Shown in pieces: positions 7,876-57,719 of a DNA stretch of 64,000 bases; the first letter of the stretch is position 1, and each line of letters begins with the position of its first letter. The notes beneath the pieces were generated by a model that saw only the letters and a program-made list of their open reading frames with translations, made no database searches and was not told the origin of the DNA. The stretch is from assembly GCA_016929065.1 (NCBI GenBank), contig JAFGJO010000054.1, forward strand, positions 1 to 64,000, read 5' to 3'. The position numbers and the translations under genes were made by a program. The stretch is from Spirochaetales bacterium. GTDB taxonomy: Bacteria > Spirochaetota > Spirochaetia > SZUA-6 > RPPD01.

Positions 7876-7904
7876 AATATTGTCTCCCTGTTCAGTGTGT
7901 ATTC

Positions 7905-7933
7905 AAAATAATCGACGGACGATAGATTGTCAA
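7905..7933 (-). promoter_or_regulatory. Sigma-70 type promoter of the trpS operon
   Basis: On the minus strand the -35 box is a perfect TTGACA (7928-7933), followed by a 17-base spacer and the -10 box TATTTT (7905-7910). Transcription would begin near 7898, leaving a short leader of about 22 bases that holds the GGGAG ribosome site of trpS. Confidence 0.7.
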
Positions 7934-8079
7934 TATAAAGAGACCCGTCTTGTCTGAAAACAATTGATAAAAATACGGTTTTCGTGAAAGAAAAAGTGCA
8001 AAACAAGGGCTATATTGTGTTGAAGAATGCAAGGCCGAACTTGAAATTTGGTGAGAAGGATGTTATTTCGGAGGAAGAT

Positions 8080-11500: not shown

Positions 11501-13363
11501 CCGAAAATCCCTGTAGAGTATTCTCCCCCGGCTGTTCAAACCGGGAATGTTGCCCGGAACTGCCGAGGGATAGGAGTATGATTCATTCGGTTCGATGACG
11601 ATGCCATGTCCTTCCATCCCCGCAAGCCGGAGGATTCCGGTCGTGTCGGGATGCGCGTAGGAGACTGCACCGGCTATCCGGTATGACAGGTTTTCTGCTG
11701 CTCCATACATGCTTGAGGACAAAAGCAGTGCTCCGGTCCGGGACCATGCAGCCTCGGTATATGCACCGGGAAGCATATTCCACCGCAGCCCAAGGGCGAT
11801 ATCAGCGGAAAAAAGGGGGTCAATCCTAAACCGGTTTCCCCATGCAAACAGTATGTCACCCGCGTTTTTTTCTGCCACACTGACGCGATAAAATATTTCG
11901 ATAAGGTCGTACGGATAAATCGGAGCGGTAAACTCGACAGTCCCTGCCGTATAATTAAGGGTAAACCGTGTCTCTTCCTGTCCGTTTCTCCTCACCCGGA
12001 CTGAACCGGGAACCACATTCGATGAAAGAGAATAGCTCGTCGTGCCGGTCGGTACTTTCGCATAGATTTCGTAATCAGTATACACCGGAATATGTTCACG
12101 GACCGGGCCATAGAACTGATGCAGGGGATCGTCAAACGGGTAATGGTTGCGGAAGTTTGTGCGGGGATTCGAGTCAACATAAGCGGTAAAAAAGGTACGT
12201 TCCGGCTCTACACGGAAATAGACCGGGGAGAGAAGAGTGTATGAACTTTCCGGCGCACCCCTGGGAATAGTTTTGATTGCAACTGTCGAAACATCTTCCG
12301 GCGCTGCAACACCGATATCATAGGCCGTAAGCATCTCGAAGGGAGAAAACTCTCCCGGTTCCCACAACAGCAGACAGGTTTGCGCATTGATGACAAGCTG
12401 GCGGTTTGCCATATTGTCACCGAGCCACGTCTGTCCCCAGTCAAAATCTGATCCCGGGCTGGCAGTATCGATAAAGCTGCCGGAGACACCCGGCAGGGCA
12501 TTTGTGCCCAGGGCCGCATCACCAACCGTGTTCGCTCCTACCGTGTAGTGTACAGCTATTCTGCCCTTATGTTCGACAAGAATATATAAAAAACCGTTTT
12601 CAGCATCCTGTGCAATCTCCTGCACGTTTGCCTTTCGGTATTTTCGCCCCTCAGCATCAAAGGAGGAGCCGTTCTTGTCTTCAAAATAGACCGCAAGGTT
12701 TTCAACAGCCGGATCAGGAAGCATAAAATACCGGCCATGCAGATATTCTTCGGGGGAATAAAACTTTTCCGCGACCTCCCGTGTTCCGGAAAAAACTTTC
12801 TTTTCCTCGCGGGTGGAATCATACCGCAGAAGCAGTTCATGAGTTGAAAACGAAGATTGAAAAAGAGCGCTGGCGCCAATCGAGGAGACACTCTGTGAGG
12901 GTGTATCAATAAAATCATATTCACTGATGCGCGTATCCTTGTTTCCGATCAGCACCTTCTGTACAAACTCACCCGGTTTGCCCGTATACCCCAAAAGAAT
13001 CGTATTGTCCTCCGCACGGGAAAGTACGCTGACTTCAAGAAAAAATCTGTCCGCATAGGAAACAGTAAACGTGAGATCGGGAACCTGTTCAAAATAAAAG
13101 CCATCGGAGAACAAGGGGAAACTTGCGGGAAACACCACTGCATCACTCGGCCCAAGCCGCAGGCCCATACCAAATGAAGCGAAGGCACGCCAGGAACCCT
13201 GCAGTAAAAGCTCAATATCCTCATCGCCGAATTGGGTTGAATACAGGGAGACCGGATCATCTTCCTGTACAGCAGGAACAGCCGGTTCCTGTGAAAAACA
13301 CGGCAGAGAAATACAGATGAGAAAAAACAGTATTAGCAGAGAGCGCATGATGATTCTTTTCAC
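8561..13363 (-). CDS. Very large exported, probably outer-membrane, beta-rich protein (SprA-like features)
   Basis: A 1600-residue protein with a signal peptide (about residues 1-24, ending CFSQ) and a C-terminus of amphipathic beta strands ending in phenylalanine (RLTLELNFSF), as in outer-membrane barrels. The body is beta-rich without cytoplasmic motifs. Around residue 470-500 is a segment of the type NYTAGTVEFTAPIYPYDLIE that recalls repeated strands in SprA-like surface proteins. Around residues 730-790 there are two acidic Ca-binding-like loops, DTDNDAILDAE and DVDGNGFLDAEE. Two lectin/jelly-roll-like stretches follow (LLIDRITLAG, LLVDEIHLTD). Relation to SprA translocons is only suggestive. 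The GTG start lacks a clear ribosome site; an ATG five codons later (MRSLLILFF) is an alternative. It appears to be monocistronic. Confidence 0.75.
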   Translation of the reverse strand: MKRIIMRSLLILFFLICISLPCFSQEPAVPAVQEDDPVSLYSTQFGDEDIELLLQGSWRAFASFGMGLRLGPSDAVVFPASFPLFSDGFYFEQVPDLTFTVSYADRFFLEVSVLSRAEDNTILLGYTGKPGEFVQKVLIGNKDTRISEYDFIDTPSQSVSSIGASALFQSSFSTHELLLRYDSTREEKKVFSGTREVAEKFYSPEEYLHGRYFMLPDPAVENLAVYFEDKNGSSFDAEGRKYRKANVQEIAQDAENGFLYILVEHKGRIAVHYTVGANTVGDAALGTNALPGVSGSFIDTASPGSDFDWGQTWLGDNMANRQLVINAQTCLLLWEPGEFSPFEMLTAYDIGVAAPEDVSTVAIKTIPRGAPESSYTLLSPVYFRVEPERTFFTAYVDSNPRTNFRNHYPFDDPLHQFYGPVREHIPVYTDYEIYAKVPTGTTSYSLSSNVVPGSVRVRRNGQEETRFTLNYTAGTVEFTAPIYPYDLIEIFYRVSVAEKNAGDILFAWGNRFRIDPLFSADIALGLRWNMLPGAYTEAAWSRTGALLLSSSMYGAAENLSYRIAGAVSYAHPDTTGILRLAGMEGHGIVIEPNESYSYPSAVPGNIPGLNSRGRILYRDFREYDAFGNFQLMPYTWSPPASQIWAYQDNSKPGPYLVAGNSVSSRGESLVLDFELDSDNDWAGFQIPFTVNSGTADLSNIRSIITSLRAVEVLGNFDVYIQLGALDEDTDNDAILDAEVSPVSGGFVFNDTDNAANLFVGGGPKNQGNTIVNSEDVDGNGFLDAEESGFVYTASVISFTGVTGWQNYIDNLSVVDQEALKKVRSIRVVVVANGAAASGRLLIDRITLAGTSVWADASSGYSSFTVKEVRESLASIQPAIPLVTAFPEVNDVFHSTGDSQEVLEITWTGADNFADWQVTTSFGSGSDGIQYKTLVLYVYTPAVLDNPLDLTAGDMFGHDAVISVDQAGIASGAWQKLEMDFDRQEVRINGNLVSAAVTIDPEFGSIQKLDIGISDTSSGTLLVDEIHLTDPEGRFGAALTMTGEYRLPGAVLFVGEVTALSDVILRENLVVKTDGFATLYSRPQEDIGIRSYSHAQFGLFFLGVEADFTALGSGDSWTFEGAHRLVFPNTSFPVMLTDSFTLKSRAGGQEWSRENSVRLLLEKIFSFSAASNATVAGPLLTQSWNSVLTMSGLLPYHLSIQTNSGQSEGSFPVADQWYGEAWANGFSFLVPYEGSNPVSRNWSTAMVHEWRGDIVSLKLSYTTGFNSFTITELSHIQKDSRKLLFTVPVAIGDILFETSYSRTLSSEQTLDDTGSLGDDYAFHFSQYPVHGYFFASFPLYEIISDDMAEYFLQSVDGIHRTSYKPEIVFSLTRKFGSSPLNLIVPSKVNVLYGREYVLEDALFNAFETISFQLLFNAINVFGLKSSLNWFSFYAIDTFSTSFQTTWQLREDRSLASVLFSTEGAYTFETVDGNMFTVKNILNIENTEYFKISEKGMLDFTWKVKPENGIELPLIDKEVARTGYLAHKEGVEILYADSSEQISSHPLTVIIKHETSIQYPEFGFLRGEIAFGFDWEASPSHTYQDNVYSTGLRLTLELNFSF

Positions 13364-13664
13364 AATATCGGCCTGTTTTCAGCTTCAAACGAAAACAAAA
13401 ATACTCCTTCGCGGCTATTGCTGCATGATAACCGTAATATATTTTGCTGTTCATGGAAATACTTGTTATTATGGAAAAAAGCCGTTCTGTATGAATTCTA
13501 TCGTGAAGTTGGCAAAAAATCCAATAATGAAAACAGGAAAAGAAAAGAATATTTATAAGAAAAACAATGAAATCAGGAAAAGAAGAGAATGTTCAAAAGA
13601 AAAGAGGGTGTATATTAATTACGAATTTTTGATCAGAATCAATGTGATTATTTTCAACAAATGT
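13364..13664. other. AT-rich intergenic region
   Basis: About 300 bases lie between the divergent starts of the 1600-residue protein and the RRM protein. No convincing gene was seen; the frame open from 13317 is AT-rich and repetitive. The stretch is purine-rich on the plus strand and contains the imperfect direct repeat listed separately. The promoter of the RRM gene follows it. Confidence 0.5.
13526..13590 (+). repeat. Imperfect 25-bp purine-rich direct repeat
   Basis: Two copies, 13526-13550 and 13566-13590, differ at two positions and are 40 bases apart. The core reads CAGGAAAAGAA. They lie about 100 bases upstream of the RRM-protein promoter. They could be a duplicated protein-binding site or simple A/G-rich drift. 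Confidence 0.5.
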
Positions 13665-13693
13665 TTGGAAATATCGGAAAGTATTGATATAAT
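13665..13693 (+). promoter_or_regulatory. Promoter of the RRM-protein gene
   Basis: A perfect -10 box TATAAT (13688-13693) lies 17 bases behind a -35 box TTGGAA (13665-13670). Transcription would start near 13700, giving a leader of about 13 bases that contains GGAGCAGG as ribosome site for the ATG at 13713. Confidence 0.6.
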
Positions 13694-13712
13694 AATATGA
13701 TTGGAGCAGGAA

Positions 13713-14639
13713 ATGGAAAACAACAAATTATTCATCGGCAACCTTAATTTCAACACGACAAAAGAAGACATTGAAGCCCTGTGCAGGGAATTAGGGACAG
13801 TCGTGTCAGTTCGAATGAGAAAAAACAGCGGGCATGCCTTTGTGGAAATGGCAACGGCTGAAGAAGCACATGTGGTAATACAGGTTCTTGACAAAAAAAA
13901 ATATATGGACAGGGAATTGCGGGCTGCACTGGAACTCTCTACACGGAAAGCAAAGTCAAAAACAATTGCGGCACATAAAGAACGCAAAAAAGAAGAAAAT
14001 ATTTACAGAACACCGGCCTCCCGGGGAGATGATCTTAAACGGGAGAGAAAGCAGCCGGGCGCAATAAAAACTTTCCGCAAGACAGCGGGGACTGCAGGCG
14101 GGAAACCAACTTTCAAAAAAAGCCGTGACCGTGGGTATGAACATTACAACAAGGGCGAATTAAAAGACGATCGAAAAGGTTTCAGCGAGGAGCGCTCCCG
14201 TGATACACGAAAATCTTTCAATCCACCTGGTTTCCGGGATGATCGAAAAACCTACGGACGGAATTCCCATGACAATAGAAAACCATTTGGCAGGAATCGT
14301 CAGGATGATAAAAACAAACATTTTACCCCGTCTGGCTTCGGGGGGAGCCGAAAATCCTACAGCCAGAATTCTCAAGACAGCCAAAAAGGATATGGCCGGG
14401 AGCGTTCCCGCGACAATAGAAAACCATTCAAACCGGATGGTTCCCCGGATTATCGAAAAACTCAACAAAGCTTTCATGAAGACCAGGAGAGAAAACCATT
14501 CAGAAAACCTGCCGGAAAAAAACCTTTCGGAAATCACAGCGGAAAAAAACAGTTTGGAAAAGGTCCGGATTTTAAAAAGCCCGGTCAGGACAGAACCGGC
14601 CCGGCAAAAACCCGCAAGAAAAGAAAGCCCACTAAATAG
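13713..14639 (+). CDS. RRM-domain RNA-binding protein with long charged, repetitive tail
   Basis: A 308-residue protein. Residues 1-80 form an RNA recognition motif: RNP2 is LFIGNLNF and RNP1 is the degenerate GHAFVEM, with the usual alpha helix TKEDIEALCREL between. Bacterial RRM proteins are usually under 130 residues and consist of this domain plus a short tail. Here about 220 residues follow that are rich in Lys, Arg, Asp, Ser, Gly and Phe. They carry loose repeats of the form RDxRKxFxxxGF and DNRKPFGRN, and end in a Lys-rich stretch. The tail is predicted to be disordered and to bind RNA through Arg/Phe. The ATG at 13713 is chosen for its GGAGCAGG site; the frame is open four codons upstream. 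It is preceded by its own promoter. Confidence 0.85.
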   Translation: MENNKLFIGNLNFNTTKEDIEALCRELGTVVSVRMRKNSGHAFVEMATAEEAHVVIQVLDKKKYMDRELRAALELSTRKAKSKTIAAHKERKKEENIYRTPASRGDDLKRERKQPGAIKTFRKTAGTAGGKPTFKKSRDRGYEHYNKGELKDDRKGFSEERSRDTRKSFNPPGFRDDRKTYGRNSHDNRKPFGRNRQDDKNKHFTPSGFGGSRKSYSQNSQDSQKGYGRERSRDNRKPFKPDGSPDYRKTQQSFHEDQERKPFRKPAGKKPFGNHSGKKQFGKGPDFKKPGQDRTGPAKTRKKRKPTK

Positions 14640-14799
14640 AGCAGCCTGATCATTCTTTTTCAGGTTTCCCTGCTGTAATTTTCCCAAAAAAAACGGCTAT
14701 TAAGTAATATAATAGAAAAGACCGACAAATATAATAGAGAGCCGGCAGTTTTCGTTTTCGGCTGCATCTTGAATGTATTTTTTCACGACAAGAGGATTT

Positions 14800-15729
14800 A
14801 TGGATGTATTGACACAAAAAGGCACACAATTCATTGGCCGCCTTCTTGAAAATCCGGCAATAGCAACACTTTCCCCGCTTCAGAAGGAACTGCAAATTCT
14901 TGAATTCCTGGGAGCGCACCGGAACGAACTGTACCCCACCCTCAGTTCGAATCAGTTTTTCCCGGGAAAACCGGAGGGCGAGATTTTTGCAATTCTGTTG
15001 TCTTCGCTGTACCTGGTCATTAACCAGTCACTTGATCCGGCTCTCAAACATATCGTTTCCGCCCAGATAGATTTTTCCTTTATAAAGCATTTTTCCACAT
15101 CACAACCGGCACCCGAGTCGGTTCGCCAGAGCGTCCTCATGTTCCTGAAAAAGCTGTTAACCCGGCCGCTTGCGCGCAGAACTGCAACCGGGCCCCTCAC
15201 TGCTCTGGAACTCGGCCTTGTCGACCGTTATCTGGATCACGGCCTGTCGCGCCGTGAATACATGTGTATGGAACTGGAAAAAGTGCAGCGGTTGCGCATG
15301 GAATCGGTTGAAATCAAAAACTATATCAAGACAACACTGCTTTTAAAACCGGCCATAGCGCTTCCGCTCGCCGAAGCAGATATGAACAACCAGGAGCTGC
15401 GCGGTGCAACCGTGCAGCCGGTATTCGCGGAAAGAGTGCACACGCTCATAAAAAATGATTTAAAACTCCTTCCCGATGAGGTGCAGAAGAGCGCATTGAA
15501 TGCGAATCTCTCCTATGAGGAAAACCGCGAACTGGAGGCAACCTCCCGAATCGCTGCGATTCTCTCGGCCAGGGCCGCATATGCAAAACAGTTTACAAAA
15601 ATCGACCGGGGAGCGGACACTCCGGATAAAAGCTGGTTTTCCATCGCCAGACGCAATGCGAAGTTTTACGGCTTCGATTTGAAAATGTGTGAAGAATTTT
15701 ACAAAATAGCATCAGATTTTGGATATTAG
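14800..15729 (+). CDS. Unknown helical protein upstream of the voltage-sensor gene
   Basis: A 309-residue soluble, mostly alpha-helical protein beginning MDVLTQKGTQFIGRLLENPA. No signal peptide, membrane segment or catalytic motif was recognised. The ATG at 14800 has an AGAGGA ribosome site; nine further codons are open upstream but lack one. The stop lies only eight bases before the voltage-sensor membrane protein, so the two are probably one transcript, followed by the DUF503 gene. It may be a cytoplasmic partner of that membrane protein, which is inference from position only. Confidence 0.7.
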   Translation: MDVLTQKGTQFIGRLLENPAIATLSPLQKELQILEFLGAHRNELYPTLSSNQFFPGKPEGEIFAILLSSLYLVINQSLDPALKHIVSAQIDFSFIKHFSTSQPAPESVRQSVLMFLKKLLTRPLARRTATGPLTALELGLVDRYLDHGLSRREYMCMELEKVQRLRMESVEIKNYIKTTLLLKPAIALPLAEADMNNQELRGATVQPVFAERVHTLIKNDLKLLPDEVQKSALNANLSYEENRELEATSRIAAILSARAAYAKQFTKIDRGADTPDKSWFSIARRNAKFYGFDLKMCEEFYKIASDFGY

Positions 15730-47229: not shown

Positions 47230-49440
47230 CTATTTTGTTTTCATGGACGTCACCCCTGACCAGTCCTTGGGCGGCGGATTCACCATATACTTTCGCGCAA
47301 AATAAATAAATATTTTTGACGGATAATCTTCAGAGCGTTTCATGGAAATTACTTTGGTGAACGCATCGATTGCCTCTTTCCATTTTCGCTCCAGATACAG
47401 CACGCGGCCATTCTCATACGCCTTCACCCAGTCAAACCGGTCCAGCTCCGCGACATCATCGCGGATGGCAAGCAGTTCATAGATTGATTCCGGTGTGGAT
47501 TTTCCATATACGGCCACCCGGTCGAGCTTTCGGGCAATAATATGCTCTGCCGCCTCACGGTAGGTTGTCTCTCCCATCATGATACTTGTGCGGTATACCT
47601 TGTTCAGGCTCTCAAGACGGCTGGCAAGATTGACCGGATCACCCAGGACGGTATAGTTCAGCCGTTTTTCAGACCCGACATTCCCGACAAACACTTTCCC
47701 GGTGTTTAACCCGATGCGGGCGGCAAACTGCGGTTTGCCCTCGGTTTCCCACCGGGCATTCAATTTGCCCAATGCCTTCTGGTAGTTGATGGCCGCTGTA
47801 CATGCAGATAATGCATGATTTGGATTTTCCCGCGGCGCACCCCAGAACGCCATTACGGCATCGCCGATATACTTGTCGATCGCTCCTTCTGTTTTCAGAA
47901 TAACATCCGACATACTGCCAAGATATTCTGCAAGCTGGGGAATAAGCCTGTTTCCCTCTTTCTCGAATATTTTAGTAAACGAGACAAGATCACTGAAAAA
48001 TATCGACAGTTCACGTTCTTCCCCGCCGAGTTCCGCTGCAATCCCGGCCGAGAACAGTTCCTGCACCAGTTCGGTCGGCAGGTATTTCTGGAACGATAAC
48101 AACCCCTGTGTCATCTGGTTCATGCTGGCCGAAAGATCATCAATCTCTTTTATCCTTGAGGGAACCGGTACCATTTTATCCAGATGAAATGTTTCAACAT
48201 GAACGAGCTGATCGGTAATGCGTAAAAGCGGCTTGACAATAATCATCCGTGCAACACGGATAATGATAAATGAAACAATAATGAACAATGCTCCGACAAT
48301 CCCCATCAGATACAGCATGTTCCGGTCAATTTCTGCAAGATAATCCGAATCGGGGATTATAGTAGCCAGCACCCAGTCAAGCCTTCCGGCCGGCATAAAC
48401 GTAATAAAATAATTCCGGCCATCCCGCTCATCATAAAACCTCAAGGGTAACGGCGCCTTAATGGTATTCAGGGCTATTTTGTTTTTGTTCATTGCGTTTT
48501 TAATAATTTTAAGGAAATTGTCATCCACATTGTCAATGGTGATGAGACGCAAATTTGTCAATTCACCCTTTTCATTTTTTTCCTGAATGGCGAACAGCTG
48601 TTCCGGTTTTTGACTTGCAATCAGTTCAGCTTTTGTATTAATGATAAAGGCACTCCCTGTCTTTCCAATCGTCTGATCTTGTAAATATAAAGAAATATCC
48701 TCCAGCTCGAATGCCACAGAAATCACCGCGTAGGTCCGCCCGTCCAATGAAAGGGATATTGCGGTGTTCAGTCCCGGTTTCTTGGTTGAATCGAACGGAT
48801 ACACATCAGTCCAGATATCGGTTACTTCCTGCAATGCGGGTTCAAACCACGGCCTGTCAGGAGCATAATATTTATAGGGGAATGTACTGGTCGATTCAAA
48901 CACATACTCGTTTCCCTTTTTTACGAAGATGTCTTTGGTCCGCACACCTGTTTTTATGACCGGATCCCATGTATTATTTATAATATTGATCTGATCTTTG
49001 TCCGGTTCGCGCTGTACTCCGAAAAAGCGTCCATCCGGGTATCCCAGGCTGATCCAGGTAAACCACGAATTGGATTTCAGCAGACTGAAATAATACAGCT
49101 CCTTTTCTTTTTTGTTGTTTATATCAACTATTTTTTTTTCAAATGATTCTTTTATGACATGCTGCGTTATTATCGCACGGTCGAATATTCGGGAAATCTC
49201 ACCATTAACACTTCGTGACACCTGTTCATTGATCGTAGTGACAAGAGCAAATATATTTTCCCTGAACATGATCTGGATCGGGATGAAAATAATCGCTCCG
49301 ATTATCAGAATAGTGATAATCATGAACCAGACCAGACTGATTTGAATTCGGACCCGGAACCCCTTATTATCCGGTTTGCGGGATTCTTTTTTTCTGGATA
49401 ATACAACTGTCTCTTCCATTGATTGTTCTGTTGTGTTCAT
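47230..49440 (-). CDS. Membrane adenylate cyclase with large Cache-type sensor
   Basis: A 736-residue protein. Two membrane helices (about 29-51 and 375-400) flank an extracytoplasmic sensor of some 320 residues that looks like a double Cache domain (WFTWISLGYPDGRFFG, then RPWFEPALQEV). A HAMP linker follows, and the class III cyclase domain spans about 470-660. Catalytic residues are intact: FFSDLVSF, DKYIGDAVMAFWGAP and LGDPVNLASRLE. The final 75 residues (LYLERKWKEAIDAFTKVISM, then PPPKDW) form a TPR-like tail shared with the cyclase at 1270-2946. It is the last of four overlapping genes and probably the output of that operon. Its ATG overlaps the binding-protein stop (ATGA). Confidence 0.92.
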   Translation of the reverse strand: MNTTEQSMEETVVLSRKKESRKPDNKGFRVRIQISLVWFMIITILIIGAIIFIPIQIMFRENIFALVTTINEQVSRSVNGEISRIFDRAIITQHVIKESFEKKIVDINNKKEKELYYFSLLKSNSWFTWISLGYPDGRFFGVQREPDKDQINIINNTWDPVIKTGVRTKDIFVKKGNEYVFESTSTFPYKYYAPDRPWFEPALQEVTDIWTDVYPFDSTKKPGLNTAISLSLDGRTYAVISVAFELEDISLYLQDQTIGKTGSAFIINTKAELIASQKPEQLFAIQEKNEKGELTNLRLITIDNVDDNFLKIIKNAMNKNKIALNTIKAPLPLRFYDERDGRNYFITFMPAGRLDWVLATIIPDSDYLAEIDRNMLYLMGIVGALFIIVSFIIIRVARMIIVKPLLRITDQLVHVETFHLDKMVPVPSRIKEIDDLSASMNQMTQGLLSFQKYLPTELVQELFSAGIAAELGGEERELSIFFSDLVSFTKIFEKEGNRLIPQLAEYLGSMSDVILKTEGAIDKYIGDAVMAFWGAPRENPNHALSACTAAINYQKALGKLNARWETEGKPQFAARIGLNTGKVFVGNVGSEKRLNYTVLGDPVNLASRLESLNKVYRTSIMMGETTYREAAEHIIARKLDRVAVYGKSTPESIYELLAIRDDVAELDRFDWVKAYENGRVLYLERKWKEAIDAFTKVISMKRSEDYPSKIFIYFARKYMVNPPPKDWSGVTSMKTK

Positions 49441-50594
49441 TTTTGTCCCCGACGCAGTTTTCCTTCATAGTCATAGATAATTGATGCCCGCTCAAAAAAA
49501 CTGAACGGTATTTTCAGACCGATTGCCTTCACCCGCCTGAAATTGATTGCAATGTCCGGAGGGCTGACAATTCCCACCGGCATTTCGCCTGGCTTTGCTT
49601 TACCGGAAAGTATCTGCCACGCGTAAAACGCGGCCAGCTGGGCATTGCTTTCAAAGCCGACGCCAATCGACATTGCCGCGCTGGCATCCCCTTCATCAAC
49701 AACATCGGTTGCAAGGCTCAACACAGGAATCTTCCCCGCATTCTGTGCAATCGTCGCGATATCGGAAAACACTTCCGTACTCCCGGTAATCCAGAATATG
49801 CTTTTTTTCAGCTCTGGATCACGGCGTTTCAGCATAATATAGGCCTCGGACACTTTTTCCCGCAGTTCCTGTTTTGCCGTCGCCCGGTTTTCCACAACCA
49901 GCTCATGAACAGCAATACTTGTCCCTGCACATGCTTCAGCAAGCGGTTTTACCTGCGCATTATAGGCGCTCGTGTTCTGCCGTGCATATAATACCACAAT
50001 ATTGCGAAGATCCGGAACCAATGTCCGTAAATATTCCAGCTGAATGGTGGTCGGCATATCGAGCGAGGTATACGCAATATTTGTATTGCTCCCTGTCTCA
50101 TAGTTTTGCATTTGGTCAAGCAGCACCGGATCTTTTGCACATATTGTCACGACCGGTATTTTCCCGGCCCCTCGGTAATTTTTATGGATGAAGCCTGCGC
50201 TGTCAGAGCCCATGGCAAAGATAAGGTCCATTTTTTCTTTTTCAGCCAGCCGCATTGCCTCCATCCCCTTTTCATCTTCCTTGCCGTAAAAGTATAATAA
50301 AAATGATGCATCCATCTTTTTCTGCTGAAAATACAGGAGTATCTGCTCAAGTTCGGTATCATATGCCGATGATTTTTTAGGGAAAAGAACAAATATTTTT
50401 TTCAGCGGCTGGGCACTCATGGTCTGTTTCGGCACAAGCAAGACCTGCATTCCGTCTGCCGATGCATTTTTTAAATTAAAAAACTGTTTTCCTGTTTCTT
50501 TCAAAGAGACCCAACTCTGCCAGGAATCTGCCTGAGCGAACGCCGAAAAGGGAAGAAGCAAACAGCACAACATTATCGCGATGATTGTTTTCAT
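49437..50594 (-). CDS. ABC-type substrate-binding protein, ABC_sub_bind family, without a transporter
   Basis: A 385-residue secreted binding protein. Signal peptide MKTIIAIMLCCLLLPFSAFA, then two Rossmann-like lobes of the PF04392 (ABC_sub_bind) type: KIFVLFPKKSSAYDTELEQI, VVTICAKDPVLLD, NIVVLYARQNTSAYNAQVKP and, near the end, FRRVKAIGLKIPFSFFERA. Members are thought to bind amino acids or small aromatic ligands. No permease or ATPase is adjacent, so it probably serves a sensor rather than a transporter. It overlaps its upstream neighbour (sensor-MFS) and the downstream cyclase by four bases each, which suggests it presents a ligand to one of their sensor domains. Confidence 0.88.
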   Translation of the reverse strand: MKTIIAIMLCCLLLPFSAFAQADSWQSWVSLKETGKQFFNLKNASADGMQVLLVPKQTMSAQPLKKIFVLFPKKSSAYDTELEQILLYFQQKKMDASFLLYFYGKEDEKGMEAMRLAEKEKMDLIFAMGSDSAGFIHKNYRGAGKIPVVTICAKDPVLLDQMQNYETGSNTNIAYTSLDMPTTIQLEYLRTLVPDLRNIVVLYARQNTSAYNAQVKPLAEACAGTSIAVHELVVENRATAKQELREKVSEAYIMLKRRDPELKKSIFWITGSTEVFSDIATIAQNAGKIPVLSLATDVVDEGDASAAMSIGVGFESNAQLAAFYAWQILSGKAKPGEMPVGIVSPPDIAINFRRVKAIGLKIPFSFFERASIIYDYEGKLRRGQK

Positions 50595-53023
50595 GTATCC
50601 CTCCTTTCCGGTTCATGCGGAAATACCGGTATTGTTTTTCCCCTGGGAATGAAAAACAATATTCCGCCCAGAAGAGCCGCAGCACCAACCCAGCTCAAAA
50701 AAAACGGATTCATCGCCAGGCCGTAGACCAGAGGCCCGATCACAAGCGGTCCGGCAACATGGCCAATTCGTTCAAGAAACCGGTACATCGAGGTGACCGA
50801 GCTCACCCCGCCGGTCCGCGCGACCCGTGTATTGGCGATGTGGGTCACCACCGGAGCATGAATGCAGCCGTGGCCAAGGCCCAGAACAACCATACCGCCG
50901 ATAAACAGCATCGTGGTCAACAGCGGATTTCCGTTAAACAGGTCATGTCCTGCAAACCCCATCCCATATAATGCAAGCCCGCCGACCTGTGAACCAAAAA
51001 ACAGAATGCCTCTGCTTTTCCCGTACCGGTCGATAATCGGTGAAATTATTTTTGTAGAAAAGAGCACAGCCGCCGAATAAAAAATTAATATCTGGCCGAT
51101 GTCTTCTTTTATATACCCTTTATTATTCAGTAACAGAGGCAAGGCAAACCCATTGACGCCGGTCAGAACTGCTTTGGTCGCAAGCCCGATAAAAAATATG
51201 GTGCGGACAAATTCAAGATCACCGAACGATTTGAAAAAAGTCCTGAACATTCCACCGGTTTTCTTTTTTTTCGCCGCCTCCATCCGGGGCAGTTTTGAAA
51301 CAAAAAATACAATGTACAGCATTACAAACACTGCGATCCCGGCTGCGAGCAAAAAGACCCCTTCATCATCGATCATTGTCACCAGAAGAGCACCCAATGC
51401 AGTACCGGAAATAATGCCGCCATTATATCCAAACACAATAATTCCCGACCCCTGTGTTTTTTTCCGCGCGGTGGCCGTACGCAGGATATATGATTGTATA
51501 CTGATAAAAAGGATCCCCTGTCCAAGGCCTGCAAGGACCCTGGATGCGATGATGATGTAAAAATCCTTTACAAAAGCCAGAAGAGCATAACTTGCAACAC
51601 AAAACAAAATTCCGATGATTAACAGCCATTTAATACTGCCCCGTTCGGCAAGTCTGCCGGTGGGCAGAAGACTGAATACAAACGCGGCAAAATAAATCGT
51701 AAACAGCCATGATGATGCCTCAACACCAAAGACCGACTGCCGGGCAATGTCCTGAAAAAACTGGGGAAGAAATGACATGAACAATCCTTCCATGAATACT
51801 GCCAGAAAATACAGGGGCCCAATGAGTTCTAATTTAAGATCCCCTGTTGCCTCTGCTGCAAGATCCTGTTCGCCAGTCTCGTTTTTCTTGCGTACCGCAA
51901 AAAGAATGTTGAGAAACAGGATTGAAAGAAAAATGCAGGAGACAAACAGCACAATAAAGTTTTTTCCGCTGCGGAATAATTGTTCATAGACCCTGTTCAG
52001 CGGCACACCGACAGAGATATTCATACTCAGGAATTTGTTGTCTGTTGGGGAAATGAGCGGTATTTCAAGGTTCATGATTTCCGGGGTAATGGGTATCTCT
52101 ACTGCCGGGACCGAAGTTGATTTTACCGAAAGGAGCGTATCCGGGCCCGATTTTAATGCAATATAATCGATATCGGGATTGATCTTCGTGTACTCAGCAA
52201 AGAGTGTGTCGATCCCGGTAAAGTCATCAAGATCAAGGTTCAGCTCCAATGCGCTGTTGAGCCGTTGGGACAATGACCGGGCAAGGGCTTTTGTCTTGTC
52301 CTGCACCCCCTCGGTATACAGGCTCACCAGTGAAAAGATGATCACGCCAGCGAGAAGTAAAAATGAAAGAGCAAAGAGGATCTGGATTCCCGCCTTTGAC
52401 CCCTTCCCTGTTTTTCGAAACAAAAATACAACAAGAAATCCAAACAATACAACAAGGCCAAGAGCCGCACCGCCAACCGGCAAAAACAGCCACAGGATCT
52501 TCTGATCGACATTTGTTTTATCAACTACCAGTTCAAGCGTCCCCACCCTGCCGCTCCGGCCGTTCAGGGCAAACCAGATGACATAATTGCTGCTGTTTTC
52601 AAATACTTCAGGAATATCCGAATCGGATGCGGATAAAGTCTGCAGAGTTGTTCTGGATTCCTTTACATCTTTTGCGACAGGCCGCACAGCGGTGGTTTCA
52701 TCCGGAACGGGGAAAATTACTTCGCGTGATTCATCCAGGATCCGCATATTCAGTATCGCCGGTTCTGCTTCATAGATTGTTTTCGTGGAGTCCTCGAATC
52801 CCGCATAGTGCTTGAGGGGGAAACCCAACAGCAGATAGGTTTTCACCGGATTCCTGACAACCTCTCCAAATGAAGCGACTTTTGTAAGATATTGTTTCCG
52901 GTATACCCGGTTTGCATCTCCTATACCGGTGTACAGCAATAACCCGAAAGAGAATATGAGCACGAGCAGGAAGGGCACGACGCTCAGGATTCGGCCGAGA
53001 AAGGATTGATTTTTCGCTATCAT
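50591..53023 (-). CDS. MFS transporter fused to two extracytoplasmic sensor modules
   Basis: An 810-residue membrane protein. The first 375 residues are laid out like a receptor: helix about 10-31, extracytoplasmic domain about 32-172, two helices about 174-235, a second extracytoplasmic domain about 236-345, and a helix about 348-370. A 12-helix MFS permease follows, from about residue 395 to the end, with the conserved loop signature TGRLAERGSIKWLL and the segment ASRVLAGLGQGILFI. The sensor modules look Cache-like but are too divergent to name. The start ATG overlaps the ligase stop by four bases and the stop overlaps the binding protein start by four bases. The ligand or cargo is unknown. 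Confidence 0.8.
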   Translation of the reverse strand: MIAKNQSFLGRILSVVPFLLVLIFSFGLLLYTGIGDANRVYRKQYLTKVASFGEVVRNPVKTYLLLGFPLKHYAGFEDSTKTIYEAEPAILNMRILDESREVIFPVPDETTAVRPVAKDVKESRTTLQTLSASDSDIPEVFENSSNYVIWFALNGRSGRVGTLELVVDKTNVDQKILWLFLPVGGAALGLVVLFGFLVVFLFRKTGKGSKAGIQILFALSFLLLAGVIIFSLVSLYTEGVQDKTKALARSLSQRLNSALELNLDLDDFTGIDTLFAEYTKINPDIDYIALKSGPDTLLSVKSTSVPAVEIPITPEIMNLEIPLISPTDNKFLSMNISVGVPLNRVYEQLFRSGKNFIVLFVSCIFLSILFLNILFAVRKKNETGEQDLAAEATGDLKLELIGPLYFLAVFMEGLFMSFLPQFFQDIARQSVFGVEASSWLFTIYFAAFVFSLLPTGRLAERGSIKWLLIIGILFCVASYALLAFVKDFYIIIASRVLAGLGQGILFISIQSYILRTATARKKTQGSGIIVFGYNGGIISGTALGALLVTMIDDEGVFLLAAGIAVFVMLYIVFFVSKLPRMEAAKKKKTGGMFRTFFKSFGDLEFVRTIFFIGLATKAVLTGVNGFALPLLLNNKGYIKEDIGQILIFYSAAVLFSTKIISPIIDRYGKSRGILFFGSQVGGLALYGMGFAGHDLFNGNPLLTTMLFIGGMVVLGLGHGCIHAPVVTHIANTRVARTGGVSSVTSMYRFLERIGHVAGPLVIGPLVYGLAMNPFFLSWVGAAALLGGILFFIPRGKTIPVFPHEPERRDT

Positions 53024-54201
53024 CTGGATACTCCCGACAAGGAAACAAGGCTGGTGATATGCGTAATATTTTTTGACCGGTACGACAACAGGTAATCCAG
53101 CCGGTCGGCAAACAGGCTCATGATCAGGTCGTTGTAGGACATCTCCTTCTGTGCAAGCCCGATGCAGGTAAGGCTGGTTACCTCTCCCGCAGGTTTTTTG
53201 AGATCGGGTTTTGGATTTGTTTCCAGCACAAAAAGCTCACCCGCTTCGTCTGCCCGGATATCAATTCGAACCAGGGTCTCCAGGAAAAAACTCGTATAAA
53301 TTGAATGAGCGAGTTTCGAAAGAGACTCGACAACTTTTTCTGAATTGCCGTCTCCAAGTACTGTGATGCGCTCATTGGTAATTGGTTTTTTATCCATGGA
53401 GGTAAACACCGGTTCATCCGCAGCAAGATTCCTCCGGACATGCGAAAAGGCAAAGGGGTGGTTCAACAGCTGGCAGTCGCCCTTTTTCGAGATTACCGGG
53501 CCGGTAATGGAAACACAGTATTCACTGCCGCCGACATATTTTTCGATGACAACCAGATTCTGGGTTGCCTCATATACTTCATTGACAGCATCGAATAAAT
53601 CATTAACGGAAGGCACATAGGTCACATGAAGTGAGGCCCTCCCGCTTGTCGGTTTGACAATAAATGGGCCAGTATAGTCGCCAAACACAGCATGAATTTC
53701 GCTGGTATCCTTTGCAGCATTTGCTTCCAGTGCTGACCTTGACCAGACAAGAAACGGTGCTGTTTTGATGTTGAATTTCTGCAGCATTGTCTTGAAAATA
53801 TGCTTGTTGTCCAGAATTGCCGCATTCATGGGATTATGGCCGATATAGGGAACCCCGGCCATTTCGAGCATTGCCGAAGCATGAGCAGTCGGAATATACC
53901 CCTGTACTCCGCCGGTGTTCAGCCATGCAAGGTGAATATCCATGACCTCAAGATTCGGCAGCAGGCTCATATCATCGGGCATGACAAAGACATTCTGAAA
54001 TCCAAGTTCAGAAAGGGCATTCGCTATATCATAGGCCACGGACTCATAACTTTTCCATGAACGCGGATTGCTCGTCTGGTAGCGCACTGCCTTTTCTTTG
54101 GATTTGTCACCCCCAAAAATCACTGCAATCCGCAGGGATTTTTTCAAGTGCTCAAGCACAAGACACAGGTCCTCGATTGAATAATCAGCTCTTTTCCGCA
54201 T
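53020..54201 (-). CDS. D-Ala-D-Ala-ligase-like ATP-grasp enzyme
   Basis: A 393-residue ATP-grasp ligase. It resembles D-alanine-D-alanine ligases: RIAVIFGGDKSKEKAV near the start, HNPMNAAILDNKHIFKTMLQ for the central domain, GPFIVKPTSGRASLHVTYV for the ATP loop, and the metal site ETNPKPDL. True Ddl has EINxxPGxT at this last site, so the substrate is probably different. The chosen ATG (MRKRADYSIEDL) has GGGGAG five bases upstream; the frame is open to 54333 without a ribosome site. It is the first gene of a four-gene operon whose next three genes overlap by ATGA each. A role in making an amide- or peptide-linked molecule is inference. Confidence 0.8.
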   Translation of the reverse strand: MRKRADYSIEDLCLVLEHLKKSLRIAVIFGGDKSKEKAVRYQTSNPRSWKSYESVAYDIANALSELGFQNVFVMPDDMSLLPNLEVMDIHLAWLNTGGVQGYIPTAHASAMLEMAGVPYIGHNPMNAAILDNKHIFKTMLQKFNIKTAPFLVWSRSALEANAAKDTSEIHAVFGDYTGPFIVKPTSGRASLHVTYVPSVNDLFDAVNEVYEATQNLVVIEKYVGGSEYCVSITGPVISKKGDCQLLNHPFAFSHVRRNLAADEPVFTSMDKKPITNERITVLGDGNSEKVVESLSKLAHSIYTSFFLETLVRIDIRADEAGELFVLETNPKPDLKKPAGEVTSLTCIGLAQKEMSYNDLIMSLFADRLDYLLSYRSKNITHITSLVSLSGVSR

Positions 54202-54390
54202 GGCTCTCCCCGAAATATTACTCAAACTCTTCCCTAAGCTTAATTGGTAATGATCTGGATTGCAAACTGCTTTTTTTACTTTTTTCCCCTGCAACCGGCC
54301 TGCCAGAGGCTTGATATTCAGCTGTCTTACCATGCTGTCCTGTCCATAATTATATACTATCAGGTCAGTTTTAAAACATCAAAAAATGTA

Positions 54391-54419
54391 TTGACTACAG
54401 ATCAAATGCGATGTACATC
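54391..54419 (+). promoter_or_regulatory. Weak candidate promoter of the pectinesterase gene
   Basis: TTGACT (54391-54396) lies 17 bases before TACATC (54414-54419), with a TG just before the -10. Only the -35 is close to consensus. Confidence 0.3.
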
Positions 54420-54447
54420 AAAAGAAATCATTATGGAGGCATTGTGC

Positions 54448-55512
54448 ATGAACAATATTTTTAAAAATACAGCCAGGAGAGCATGGGGCCTTGTCTTTTT
54501 GATTGTCAGTTTCAGTATTTCAGCCGAAGGTACCAAAACAGCGGATTACTCAAAAATCAAATTTGATCTCACTGTTGCAAAAGACGGAAGCGGGACACAG
54601 ACAACTGTTCAGGCAGCGATAGACGCGGTCCCCGACAATTCCAAAACACCGGTATTCATCCTGGTTAAGAACGGCATCTACAGGGAAGTGGTTAACGTAA
54701 ATTCGGCAAAACGGAATATCCGGCTGCTTGGCGAAAATGTTTCCAAAACAATCATCACCTTTGACAACTATCACGGGAAACTCCGCGCAGACGGTTCAAA
54801 ACATGGCACCACGGGAAGTTCTACTGTGTTTATTTACGGAAATGGTTTTTATGCGGAAAACATTACATTTGAGAACTCAACGGATGAATCAACGATCACC
54901 GATGACAAGCAGGCAGTATCCATCCGGACAGAGGCCGAAGAATTGATCTTTAAAAACTGCCGGTTTATCGGGAATCAGGATACAGTTTTCACACGCGGCG
55001 GCCGTCAGTATTTTGAAAACTGTTATATTGAGGGAGATGTGGATTTCATCTTTGGAGACGGCCCCGCCTGGTTTGAACAATGTGAAATTAAATCGCTTGA
55101 CCGTCCGGGAAGCACGAAAGGGTACCTTACCGCCGCGAGCACCCCGGAACGTCTGCCCTTCGGCCTGGTATTCAGCAAGTGCAAACTCACCGCTGCCGAG
55201 GGTGTCACAAAAAATACCGTTTTTCTGGGCCGTGCATGGCACCCCTCTTCCTATAATGAACCTGTCCGGGGGAGTACAGTATTCCTGTTCTGTGAAATGG
55301 GCGAGCATATAAAAACAGTGGGATGGACCTACATGGACGGTAAATACCCTGTAAAATCAGAACGACTTCGTGAATATAAAAGCACCGGCCCCGGCGGAAC
55401 CGGGATACATTCAAACCGCATACAGCTCACCGACGATGAAGCCAAAGAATACACACTGAAAAATGTCCTTGGCGGGAAAGACAACTGGGATCCGAAAAAA
55501 CCTGTTTACTGA
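54448..55512 (+). CDS. Secreted pectinesterase (pectin methylesterase)
   Basis: A 354-residue carbohydrate esterase family 8 enzyme that removes methyl groups from pectin. A signal peptide precedes AEGTKTADYSK. The catalytic core has FIGNQDTVF, GDVDFIFGDGPAWF with the second catalytic Asp, and FLGRAWH with the active-site Arg. The parallel beta-helix repeats (FYAENITFENS, LIFKNCRFIGN) are visible. The ATG at 54448 is chosen for its GGAGG at a good distance; an ATG five codons upstream overlaps that site. It is alone on the plus strand, without other pectin genes nearby. It points to plant-derived substrates in the habitat. Confidence 0.93.
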   Translation: MNNIFKNTARRAWGLVFLIVSFSISAEGTKTADYSKIKFDLTVAKDGSGTQTTVQAAIDAVPDNSKTPVFILVKNGIYREVVNVNSAKRNIRLLGENVSKTIITFDNYHGKLRADGSKHGTTGSSTVFIYGNGFYAENITFENSTDESTITDDKQAVSIRTEAEELIFKNCRFIGNQDTVFTRGGRQYFENCYIEGDVDFIFGDGPAWFEQCEIKSLDRPGSTKGYLTAASTPERLPFGLVFSKCKLTAAEGVTKNTVFLGRAWHPSSYNEPVRGSTVFLFCEMGEHIKTVGWTYMDGKYPVKSERLREYKSTGPGGTGIHSNRIQLTDDEAKEYTLKNVLGGKDNWDPKKPVY

Positions 55513-55530: not shown

Positions 55531-55563
55531 GGCAGCAGGCTATAATCCGCTGCCTTTTTTTTT
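55531..55563 (+). terminator. Intrinsic terminator of the pectinesterase gene
   Basis: GGCAGC (55531-55536) pairs with GCTGCC (55549-55554), extended by GG/CC with one bulged A, and nine T follow. The hairpin overlaps the last codons of the convergent histidine kinase gene. Confidence 0.85.
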
Positions 55564-57666
55564 CTGCAATATCGCAGATATTTTTTCAGCGAGTTCGGTG
55601 AGCTTGAACGGCTTGTGCAGAAAATCGTCTGCCCCCTGACGAAGCAGTACTTCGGGTTCATTGTGCATACTGTATCCGCTGACGATCAAAACCCTGCATG
55701 CAGGATTTATTTTTTTAATCAAGGTAAACACGTCTGTCCCGCTCATGACCGGCATCATGAGATCCATAACCACCAATGATATTTCTTCCCATTGCTGTTT
55801 ATAATAATCGACCGCTTCCCTGCTATTTTTAAAATACACAACGTCATACCCCATCCACATCAGCATTTTCGAGATTGTCCTGGCAACGATTGCTTCATCA
55901 TCGACAAGAAGTATTTTCCCCTTTCCCATACCGGGGGGTGCAGGGTCCTCAATGGCATTTACAACAACAGATGTTGATATTTGGACCGGAAGGAAAACAA
56001 AAAAAGAAGTCCCCTGACCAACACGGCTGTCCAGGTCGATAATACCCTGATGGCTGTTCACTATGTTATAGGCGGCAGACAGCCCCAATCCTGTCCCCTT
56101 CCCGGTTTTTTTTGTGGTATAGAATGGCTCAAAAATATGTTTTCTGATTGCTTCTTCGATTCCGACACCTGAATCCTTTATTTCCACAACAATATACTCG
56201 CCTGCAGGAAGAACATGGGTCAGGGGAAATGTTTTTTCAAATGAAGTATTCCGGAGTGTCGTGGATATGGACAAAGAACCGCCTGTCGGCATCGCGTCGC
56301 AGGCATTGATTGCGATATTCAGCAATGCATTATATAGCTGCGAGGCATCTCCGCTGATCATGCTGTGATTTGCTGCCAGATTCCGTGACAGCAATATGCG
56401 TTTGTCTACACTGTGTTCAAGCAGAGAGAGGATCTCATCAATTATTTTATGAATGTCGACAAGGTCAGATTTGATTCTGTCTTTTCTGGCGAATGAAAGC
56501 AGATTTTTGGTGGTCTCCGCAGCATGCTTCGCACTTAAAAAGATGTTTTCGGCGTAATCTGACAGTTCTGTATTGTCCTTGAGACGGAAACGAAGAAGCT
56601 CGGAAAGCCCCATGATTCCAGTAAGCTGGTTGTTAAAGTCATGCGCAATCCCGCCGGCAAGCTGGCCGATTGCCTCCATTTTTTGTGTCTGCCGGAGCTG
56701 TTCTTCGAGATGAAACTGCTTTGTAATATCTTTCAGAACGCTCAGGACAGAGACAATGTTCCTGTCTTCATCATACTCGGGATATGTTCTGGCTTCTATA
56801 ACCAGCAACCCGTTGGGAACCGGAACCTGAAACACATCGTGTGACGGCTTCCCGGTCGCAAATACCAGTTTGAGCACCCGGATACTTTCGGCTGCAACTT
56901 CTTCCGGCAAACCGACCTCCCGGTTTGTTTTGCCGATAAAAGTTTCCGGTTGCAGCCCTGCAATCTCCCGTACCTGATCACTGATAAACAGATATCGGGC
57001 ATCTTTATCAAAACGGGCAATGATATCCGGAATATTCCGGGTGAGCGAGAGATATTGCTCCTTTAACTGCTGCAATTCAGCAATTCGCACCTGTTCAATT
57101 ATATTCCGCTGTGCAGTGAAAAGAACTACATGAAGAGAAATCCCGATAAATATTGCAAAATAGGTATATATCTCGGGCTTGAGCTGCCCGTAAAAAAGGA
57201 CAATAAATAAAATAAACTCAAAAAGCAAAACACCGTTTACCAAAAGACCCTGTTTCGTATTCATGAAATAATAGGCGGAAATAAGCGGAAAAAACAGCAG
57301 GAGCATCCCCTTGACGGCTAAAAAATCAATATTTCCCGGGATGGAAAAAATAAAAAGAGAGACCGACGTGATCAAAATCAGCAGACAGCCAGAGATCATG
57401 TACAATCCCCGCCTGTTGAGCAGGTAACAAAAAGCAATGCCTGCGACAGTTGCACAGATAGTGTAAAAATTATGGTTCGGCTGCACACCCAAAACGAAAG
57501 ATGTTATCATGACCCCTAATCCCGCAAGAAACAGATGAATTTGAATGAACGACAGAATCCTCGACTTTTCAACGGTTTCGGTATCAGACACCCGTGCGAG
57601 CGGATCCAGGAACATTTTTTTGAAAGCGGTACGGCGGCGGGTAAAATCTCTGTTATTGCTCTTCAT
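55540..57666 (-). CDS. Hybrid sensor histidine kinase with PAS and receiver domains
   Basis: A 708-residue signalling protein. About six membrane helices occupy residues 40-200 without a large outer domain. A PAS domain follows (about 210-320: YLSLTRNIPDIIARFDKDAR), then the HisKA dimerisation helix with the phosphorylated His in GIAHDFNNQLTGIMGL, and the ATPase domain (DSGVGIEE, GKGTGLGLSAAYNIV). A C-terminal receiver domain carries the phosphorylation site in VVMDLMMPVMSG. The start is placed at the ATG (MKSNNRDF) rather than the TTG four codons upstream; neither has a clear ribosome site. No regulator gene lies next to it, so its output partner is unknown. Confidence 0.92.
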   Translation of the reverse strand: MKSNNRDFTRRRTAFKKMFLDPLARVSDTETVEKSRILSFIQIHLFLAGLGVMITSFVLGVQPNHNFYTICATVAGIAFCYLLNRRGLYMISGCLLILITSVSLFIFSIPGNIDFLAVKGMLLLFFPLISAYYFMNTKQGLLVNGVLLFEFILFIVLFYGQLKPEIYTYFAIFIGISLHVVLFTAQRNIIEQVRIAELQQLKEQYLSLTRNIPDIIARFDKDARYLFISDQVREIAGLQPETFIGKTNREVGLPEEVAAESIRVLKLVFATGKPSHDVFQVPVPNGLLVIEARTYPEYDEDRNIVSVLSVLKDITKQFHLEEQLRQTQKMEAIGQLAGGIAHDFNNQLTGIMGLSELLRFRLKDNTELSDYAENIFLSAKHAAETTKNLLSFARKDRIKSDLVDIHKIIDEILSLLEHSVDKRILLSRNLAANHSMISGDASQLYNALLNIAINACDAMPTGGSLSISTTLRNTSFEKTFPLTHVLPAGEYIVVEIKDSGVGIEEAIRKHIFEPFYTTKKTGKGTGLGLSAAYNIVNSHQGIIDLDSRVGQGTSFFVFLPVQISTSVVVNAIEDPAPPGMGKGKILLVDDEAIVARTISKMLMWMGYDVVYFKNSREAVDYYKQQWEEISLVVMDLMMPVMSGTDVFTLIKKINPACRVLIVSGYSMHNEPEVLLRQGADDFLHKPFKLTELAEKISAILQKKKGSGL

Positions 57667-57719
57667 GATACACAACAAATACTAATGATGAAGAGATATG
57701 CTGTCAATTGAATTATGCT

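Follow-up and report, generated by a model that had tools for sequence, protein, structure and literature searches.

Results

A ligase, a sensor-fused permease, a binding protein and a cyclase encoded together

The window analyzed here is a stretch of 64,000 nucleotides from a Spirochaetales bacterium (assembly GCA_016929065.1, contig JAFGJO010000054.1, positions 1 to 64,000). Four overlapping genes on its minus strand code for an ATP-grasp ligase, a permease of the major facilitator superfamily (MFS) carrying two sensor domains, a periplasmic binding protein (SBP) and a membrane cyclase. They belong to a module that recurs in distantly related bacteria; its core, the permease and the binding protein, is inherited across phyla along with an amide-bond-forming ligase. 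LIGw denotes the window-type ligase and TM stands for transmembrane. The genes and their domains are as follows.

53020..54201 (-): LIGw, 393-residue ATP-grasp ligase of the Ddl superfamily (PF07478, 3.8e-15)
50591..53023 (-): sensor-MFS, 810-residue permease with two N-terminal extracytoplasmic Cache-type domains (MFS_1, 3.1e-36)
52478..52933 (-): Cache-like sensor 1 of the permease, residues ~31-182 (model of residues 1-399, pLDDT 75.5; Foldseek matches to WalK, LuxQ and KinD)
51959..52324 (-): Cache-like sensor 2 of the permease, residues ~234-355 (topology, model and Foldseek)
50648..51856 (-): 12-TM MFS domain, nearest solved folds the DHA1-type H+ antiporters VMAT, MdfA, NorA and SotB (Foldseek)
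49437..50594 (-): PF04392 SBP, 385 residues, with a signal peptide (PF04392, 1.1e-15)
47230..49440 (-): TM-Cache-TM-HAMP-class III adenylate/guanylate cyclase, 736 residues (Guanylate_cyc, 2.3e-21)
47494..48012 (-): catalytic domain of the cyclase, residues 477-649 (Pfam; motifs FSD, IDKYIGDA and YTVLGDPVNLASR kept)

Conservation of the gene set

An initial annotation of this DNA had suggested spirochaete genomes as the place to seek conservation of the four neighbors. A conserved neighborhood was found, with LIGw, sensor-MFS and SBP in the same order, and it is not limited to spirochaetes, as the same succession occurs in Alphaproteobacteria and on Vibrio plasmids; the four genes can thus be regarded as a conserved module. 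Genome collections were scanned with an MFS profile built from a six-sequence alignment, and the searches scored the first few candidates of each genome, so that the prevalence figures given here are lower bounds. LIGw is present in at least 9 of 337 Alphaproteobacteria genomes, and sensor-MFS lies directly downstream of it in 8 of the 9. In the ninth genome (G496), both ligase copies are located at contig ends, and they were dismissed as counterexamples for that reason. Every window-type ligase with readable downstream DNA is followed by a sensor-MFS gene. The complete order was found in eight Alphaproteobacteria loci (L038, L039, L042, L088 and L090-L093), and a ninth (L089) has LIGw followed by sensor-MFS, with no SBP called. 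Relatives include Spirochaetaceae bin59 (CP070696), Alphaproteobacteria metagenome-assembled genomes (MAGs), Geminicoccaceae, Rhodospirillum, Azospirillum sp. SYSU D00513 and a Desulfobacteraceae MAG. In Vibrio tubiashii ATCC 19109, V. crassostreae, V. gigantis and V. europaeus, the three genes are carried by plasmids, between the tssH and FHA/tssJ genes of type VI secretion system (T6SS) clusters. In these Vibrio loci (p251 of V. tubiashii ATCC 19109, L150, 9980-15161; also L151-L153), they are followed by genes for an SBP_bac_3-like second binding protein and an FHA protein.

The three proteins diverged together. Mantel tests over 13 loci showed that the identities between pairs of ligases, of MFS proteins and of SBPs are correlated (r of 0.95, 0.82 and 0.91; 0/2000 permutations). 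The window ligase is 41-49% identical to the Alphaproteobacteria and Vibrio copies. A copy from its own order is no closer to it (0.47) than are those of Alphaproteobacteria (0.41-0.49), which points to lateral transfer. In a tree of the MFS proteins, all those linked to LIGw fall into one clade of 17 members (support 1.0), which includes three members without LIGw (L016, L040 and L095).

Re-derivation of the open reading frames and their coordinates confirmed the 4-bp ATGA overlaps at all three junctions (53020-53023, 50591-50594 and 49437-49440). The initial annotation had taken these overlaps to mean that the proteins are made in fixed proportion. We do not retain this interpretation, because ATGA overlaps are frequent in the window (6 of 35 same-strand junctions, of which 3 are in the four-gene set) and the ligase/MFS junction has no overlap in most relatives; the MFS/SBP junction often has one. 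It is the conserved neighborhood, not the overlaps, that sets the gene set apart from chance. The ligase most likely starts at the ATG at 54201, preceded by ggggagagcc, in a longer reading frame that extends to 54333.

A ligase distinct from Ddl

LIGw had been described as a ligase unlike true Ddl, and our analyses bear this out. Its Pfam match is weak for a Ddl, and it falls far below the curated Ddl cut-offs, with 82.2 bits against 245.65 for TIGR01205 and 81.1 against 243 for PRK01372, even though its best relatives and its best PDB match are Ddl enzymes. The ATP-grasp residues for ATP and metal binding, K183, E220, R312, D314, E327 and N329, are invariant in 12 LIGw homologues; from the alignment, we take them to be the equivalents of DdlB K144, E180, R255, D257, E270 and N272. 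In the same alignment the D-Ala pocket motifs (Glu15, HG..GEDG and GMT.HS) are not kept, and family-specific invariant motifs stand in their place (NPR.WKSY, WLN.GGVQG, GRAS, SMD..PIT and NPKPDL). A canonical Ddl is encoded elsewhere in the genome (contig C56, 5.6e-73). Given the low score, the absence of the Ddl motifs and this second gene, we reject a housekeeping or spare Ddl role for the window ligase as unlikely. Such a role may still hold for the spirochaete branch that carries a full Ddl (see below).

A permease with two extracytoplasmic sensor domains

The MFS domain scored above the Pfam cut-off (125.5 bits). Hydropathy analysis predicted four TM segments ahead of it (residues 12-30, 183-201, 215-233 and 356-374), and the AlphaFold model shows two successive TM-Cache-TM units followed by a helical 12-TM MFS domain (pLDDT of 79.5 for the whole protein and 75.5 for residues 1-399). 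Both extracytoplasmic domains are modeled as helix plus beta-sheet. Neither matched a Pfam family. Foldseek searches with the N-terminal part retrieved Cache/PDC sensors, namely, the WalK complex, V. cholerae LuxQ, KinD, DctB, DcuS and TlpC, with low TM-scores, which reflect the comparison of single domains with a pair whose mutual orientation is arbitrary. By these predictions, the N terminus comprises Cache folds between TM helices. Topology, model and structural matches thus agree with the earlier description of a permease carrying two sensor domains.

With the full model, Foldseek retrieved VMAT, MdfA, NorA and SotB, as well as PepTSt. The best NCBIfam models, TIGR00880 and SotB-like (efflux/sugar efflux), are all below cut-off. 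The MFS motif residues R495, the motif-B glycines and D665 are invariant or nearly so. In one Alphaproteobacteria branch (L096-L106), a gene of its own (~255 codons), directly before the MFS gene, encodes the first TM-sensor-TM unit.

A binding protein without ABC partners

The SBP scored 58.1 bits against a gathering cut-off of 25.9, which is low for PF04392. As the initial annotation had noted, it lacks a permease and ATPase of its own: Pfam searches found no ATP-binding cassette (ABC) permease or ATPase among its neighbors, which rules out a component of a nearby ABC system. In related genomes, a gene of ~300 codons and then another gene come after most strong PF04392 genes, an ABC layout as judged from the length and order of the neighbors. 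The SBPs of the module form a divergent PF04392 subgroup, with conserved signatures of their own and without ABC partners. Solved relatives of the window protein are 6HNI, 3LFT and 3LKV. The solved relatives CD0873, VC_1101 and SP1069 have Tyr, Phe and Trp as ligands, held through a common mechanism for the amino and carboxyl groups (PMC6816091).

The second PF04392 gene of the genome (L027, 5200-8325, contig C54) adjoins a hybrid histidine kinase gene, whose TM-Cache-TM (sCache) region is matched by sensor 1 in the MFS profile. In two other loci (L023, 4679-7060; L024, 3948-6332), the SBP is tandemly duplicated in a single chain of 793-794 residues, and two PF04392 stretches were found in L023.

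A cyclase or a phosphatase as output

The Cache-type cyclase assignment also stood. The Guanylate_cyc (76.7 bits) and HAMP (1e-4) domains are above the Pfam cut-offs, dCache_1 (1e-7) is below, and TM segments at ~34-52 and ~376-394 (hydropathy) give the TM-Cache-TM topology. The class III catalytic motifs FSD, IDKYIGDA and NLASR are present, and the Lys/Thr pattern suggests that ATP may be the substrate. Overall, Pfam supported all four domain assignments of the initial annotation (ATP-grasp/Ddl, MFS, PF04392 and class III cyclase).

The cyclase is nevertheless not a fixed part of the set. HAMP or Cache cyclases are found in most spirochaete sensor-MFS loci and in L091, L097, L099 and L114, whereas HAMP-SpoIIE phosphatases are found in L095, L104, L105 and L122 (domains tested for L104 and L122, the others by similarity), and several loci have no output enzyme. 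The cyclase is therefore one of two exchangeable outputs. In L016, a SulP-like transporter gene (12835-15114) with putative STAS and cyclic-nucleotide-binding domains, recognized by eye, directly follows the cyclase. A putative class I lysyl-tRNA synthetase-like gene lies between SBP and cyclase in L023 (3010-4668) and L024 (2230-3927).

The sensor-MFS family and its partner enzymes

Profile searches detected sensor-MFS proteins in at least 12 of the 286 genomes from the window's phylum, at least 28 of the 337 from Alphaproteobacteria and at least 10 of the 247 from the phylum to which the Desulfobacteraceae MAG belongs. In 42 of 54 nonduplicate loci a PF04392-type SBP is encoded at most five genes away, and in 31 it is the direct neighbor; several of the loci without it are on cut contigs. 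The enzymes that accompany the pair differ. A true Ddl and an Ala_racemase_N protein are found in spirochaete loci L017, L019, L021 and L026 (L023 and L024 likewise have the racemase), a GCS2 ligase in L043, L044 and L094 (domain tested in L094, with which the other two cluster), an ATP-grasp_4 ligase in L097 and L099 (domain tested in L097), and a DAP epimerase in L045. All these enzymes have amino acids as substrates or make amide bonds. Because ligases and outputs differ by branch, sensor-MFS and SBP constitute the stable core, and the ligase is a lineage-specific partner.

Secretin (PF00263) genes lie in or beside two unrelated sensor-MFS loci (L033, 6808-8187; L096, 3795-5969), and in L095 a TauD-family dioxygenase gene (7081-7995) is found directly before sensor-MFS, after a HAMP-SpoIIE-like gene. 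Upstream of the operon in the window, a hybrid histidine kinase gene (PAS-HisKA-HATPase-receiver, 55540-57678) on the same strand is separated from it by a divergent pectinesterase gene (54244-55512). A promoter scan was uninformative, with 18 candidates against 15.3 expected. Terminator-like sites were in excess (20, versus 10.0 in shuffled sequences), and none is tied to the operon.

Discussion

We tentatively propose that the operon encodes a conserved receptor-transporter module for a small molecule derived from an amino acid, which the ligase would make, the MFS protein export, the SBP sense and the cyclase report. The cytoplasmic ligase would link an amino acid with a second amine or carboxylate, and the DHA1-like carrier would export the product by proton antiport. 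Outside the cell, the SBP would catch the compound and dock on the Cache sensors that the MFS protein carries, possibly on that of the cyclase too, so as to adjust transport, while the Cache/HAMP cyclase would report the state of the system as cyclic AMP (cAMP). In other lineages, another amide ligase or a racemase takes the place of the ligase, and a HAMP-SpoIIE phosphatase that of the cyclase. The module might then function as a make-export-sense circuit or as a self-regulated secretion system. In favor of this proposal are the conserved order and correlated divergence of the three genes, the frequent pairing of sensor-MFS with an SBP, the amino acid or amide chemistry of the partner enzymes, the exporters nearest to the MFS fold, the likeness of the sensors to LuxQ, the aromatic amino acids bound by solved PF04392 relatives, and the second PF04392 gene beside a histidine kinase with a matching sensor. 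We infer the substrate, the direction of transport, and the protein and signaling contacts; the direction of transport is the weakest link of this mechanism.

The initial annotation had suggested a circuit for making, moving and sensing an amide-linked molecule. This idea is strengthened because unrelated ligases (Ddl, GCS2 and ATP-grasp_4) and racemases or epimerases accompany branches of the same sensor-MFS family, but the cyclase, as an exchangeable element, cannot be held to be its obligatory reporter. Activation of receptors by binding proteins is documented, with 10 of 11 known pairs of SBP and histidine kinase encoded by neighboring genes (PMC11113362). Several observations weigh against our proposal. 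Neighboring SBP and sensor genes whose products do not interact are also documented (PMC11113362). No ligase is visible in most loci of the large Alphaproteobacteria branch L096-L112, L016 has kept MFS, SBP and cyclase without the ligase, and the sensor-MFS of L040 has no visible partners. The cyclase is absent from most LIGw loci outside the Spirochaetota, and peptide importers (PepTSt) are among the structural matches of the MFS domain.

This last point favors uptake and assimilation, a less probable reading in which the SBP captures an external amino acid-like nutrient or a peptidoglycan fragment, the MFS protein imports it, the ligase uses it, e.g., for storage or for cell wall precursors, and the cyclase signals that it is available. 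Binding proteins normally serve import, the PF04392 relatives are amino acid importers, and the D-amino acid racemase and Ddl of the spirochaete operons fit wall chemistry. However, the nearest MFS folds are exporters, the partner enzymes are biosynthetic ligases with no hydrolases among them, and we know of no MFS carrier that requires a binding protein.

Self-protection appears unlikely. The sensor-MFS would expel a toxic amino acid antimetabolite (a D-cycloserine-like compound or a dipeptide toxin) sensed by the SBP, and the ligase or second Ddl would be resistant or would inactivate it. The joint presence of a second Ddl, a racemase and DHA1-like efflux in L017, L019, L021 and L026 would fit, as would the resemblance to MdfA, NorA and SotB and the placement in Vibrio T6SS clusters. 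A spare Ddl is nevertheless unlikely in the window, because LIGw lacks the Ddl substrate motifs, and the GCS2 and ATP-grasp_4 ligases of other branches do not fit a duplication of the target.

We consider it quite improbable that the MFS protein is a receptor instead of a transporter, controlling the cyclase or phosphatase together with the SBP, as UhpC does for UhpB, with the ligase product as intracellular ligand. This reading would be in keeping with the two sensor domains and the HAMP output enzyme encoded by one operon, and with the replacement of the cyclase by SpoIIE, but the MFS motif residues are conserved as in working carriers, and many loci have no output enzyme nearby. Finally, common as ATGA overlaps are, an ordinary operon of unrelated genes brought together by chance is ruled out for practical purposes by the recurrence of gene set and order in Alphaproteobacteria and on Vibrio plasmids, with correlated divergence.

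A bolder extension of the make-export-sense proposal, which we hold to be rather doubtful, is a new cell-to-cell or self-sensing circuit, in which the molecule made by the ligase would be exported through a Cache-MFS protein on which the SBP, loaded with that molecule, docks, and its outside level converted into cAMP; a swapped ligase would change the molecule, and in Vibrio the circuit would have a part in controlling the T6SS. If make-export-sense is true, the module would represent a new family of signals, small molecules with a chemistry predictable from the swapped partner (Ddl, GCS2, ATP-grasp_4 or racemase). The Vibrio plasmid copies lie within T6SS clusters of culturable strains, so that the module can be tested directly. 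It would offer a new way of gating an MFS carrier even if uptake or efflux proved to be right.

The gene set is apparently undescribed. In agreement with the initial annotation, no description of it was found among the open-access papers searched, most subscription journals being outside that scope, and neither the Vibrio T6SS and genome papers examined nor the Cache survey (PMC4822843) contain transporter or ligase terms. What appears new is the gene set and the Cache-MFS architecture; the function is a prediction.

Several known systems share elements with the module. Cache-domain receptors include cyclases and SpoIIE phosphatases, as in the module. The outputs listed in a survey of these receptors (Upadhyay 2016, PMC4822843) are methyl-accepting chemotaxis proteins, histidine kinases, GGDEF/EAL proteins, SpoIIE, cyclases, kinases, transcription factors and ion channels, with no MFS transporter among them, and its text contains none of the words transporter, MFS and permease. 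LIGw shares the ATP-grasp fold and the ATP and metal residues with Ddl (PF07478), but not the N-terminal Glu and the HG..GEDG and GMT motifs. Similarly, the window SBP has the fold and family of TrpX/CD0873-type binding proteins, from which it differs by its low score (58 bits), its own signatures and the lack of an ABC permease and ATPase.

The UhpC-UhpB pair provides a precedent for an MFS-fold protein used in signaling, in a system without Cache domains, binding protein or ligase. In LuxP-LuxQ and NspS-MbaA, as here, an orphan periplasmic binding protein is encoded beside a membrane protein with Cache/PDC-type sensors. The MFS sensors have LuxQ, a receptor under the control of a binding protein, as one of their best structural matches. 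The parallel with LuxP/LuxQ is one of gene adjacency and fold resemblance, with docking putative in our case. In the module, the sensors are fused to an MFS domain rather than to a kinase or GGDEF-EAL domains, and a ligase is part of the set. Lastly, the MFS fold is that of DHA1 drug:H+ antiporters such as MdfA, NorA and SotB, and bacilysin-type systems presumably also have a ligase encoded beside an MFS carrier; to such pairs, the module adds two fused Cache sensors, a dedicated SBP and a cyclase or phosphatase.

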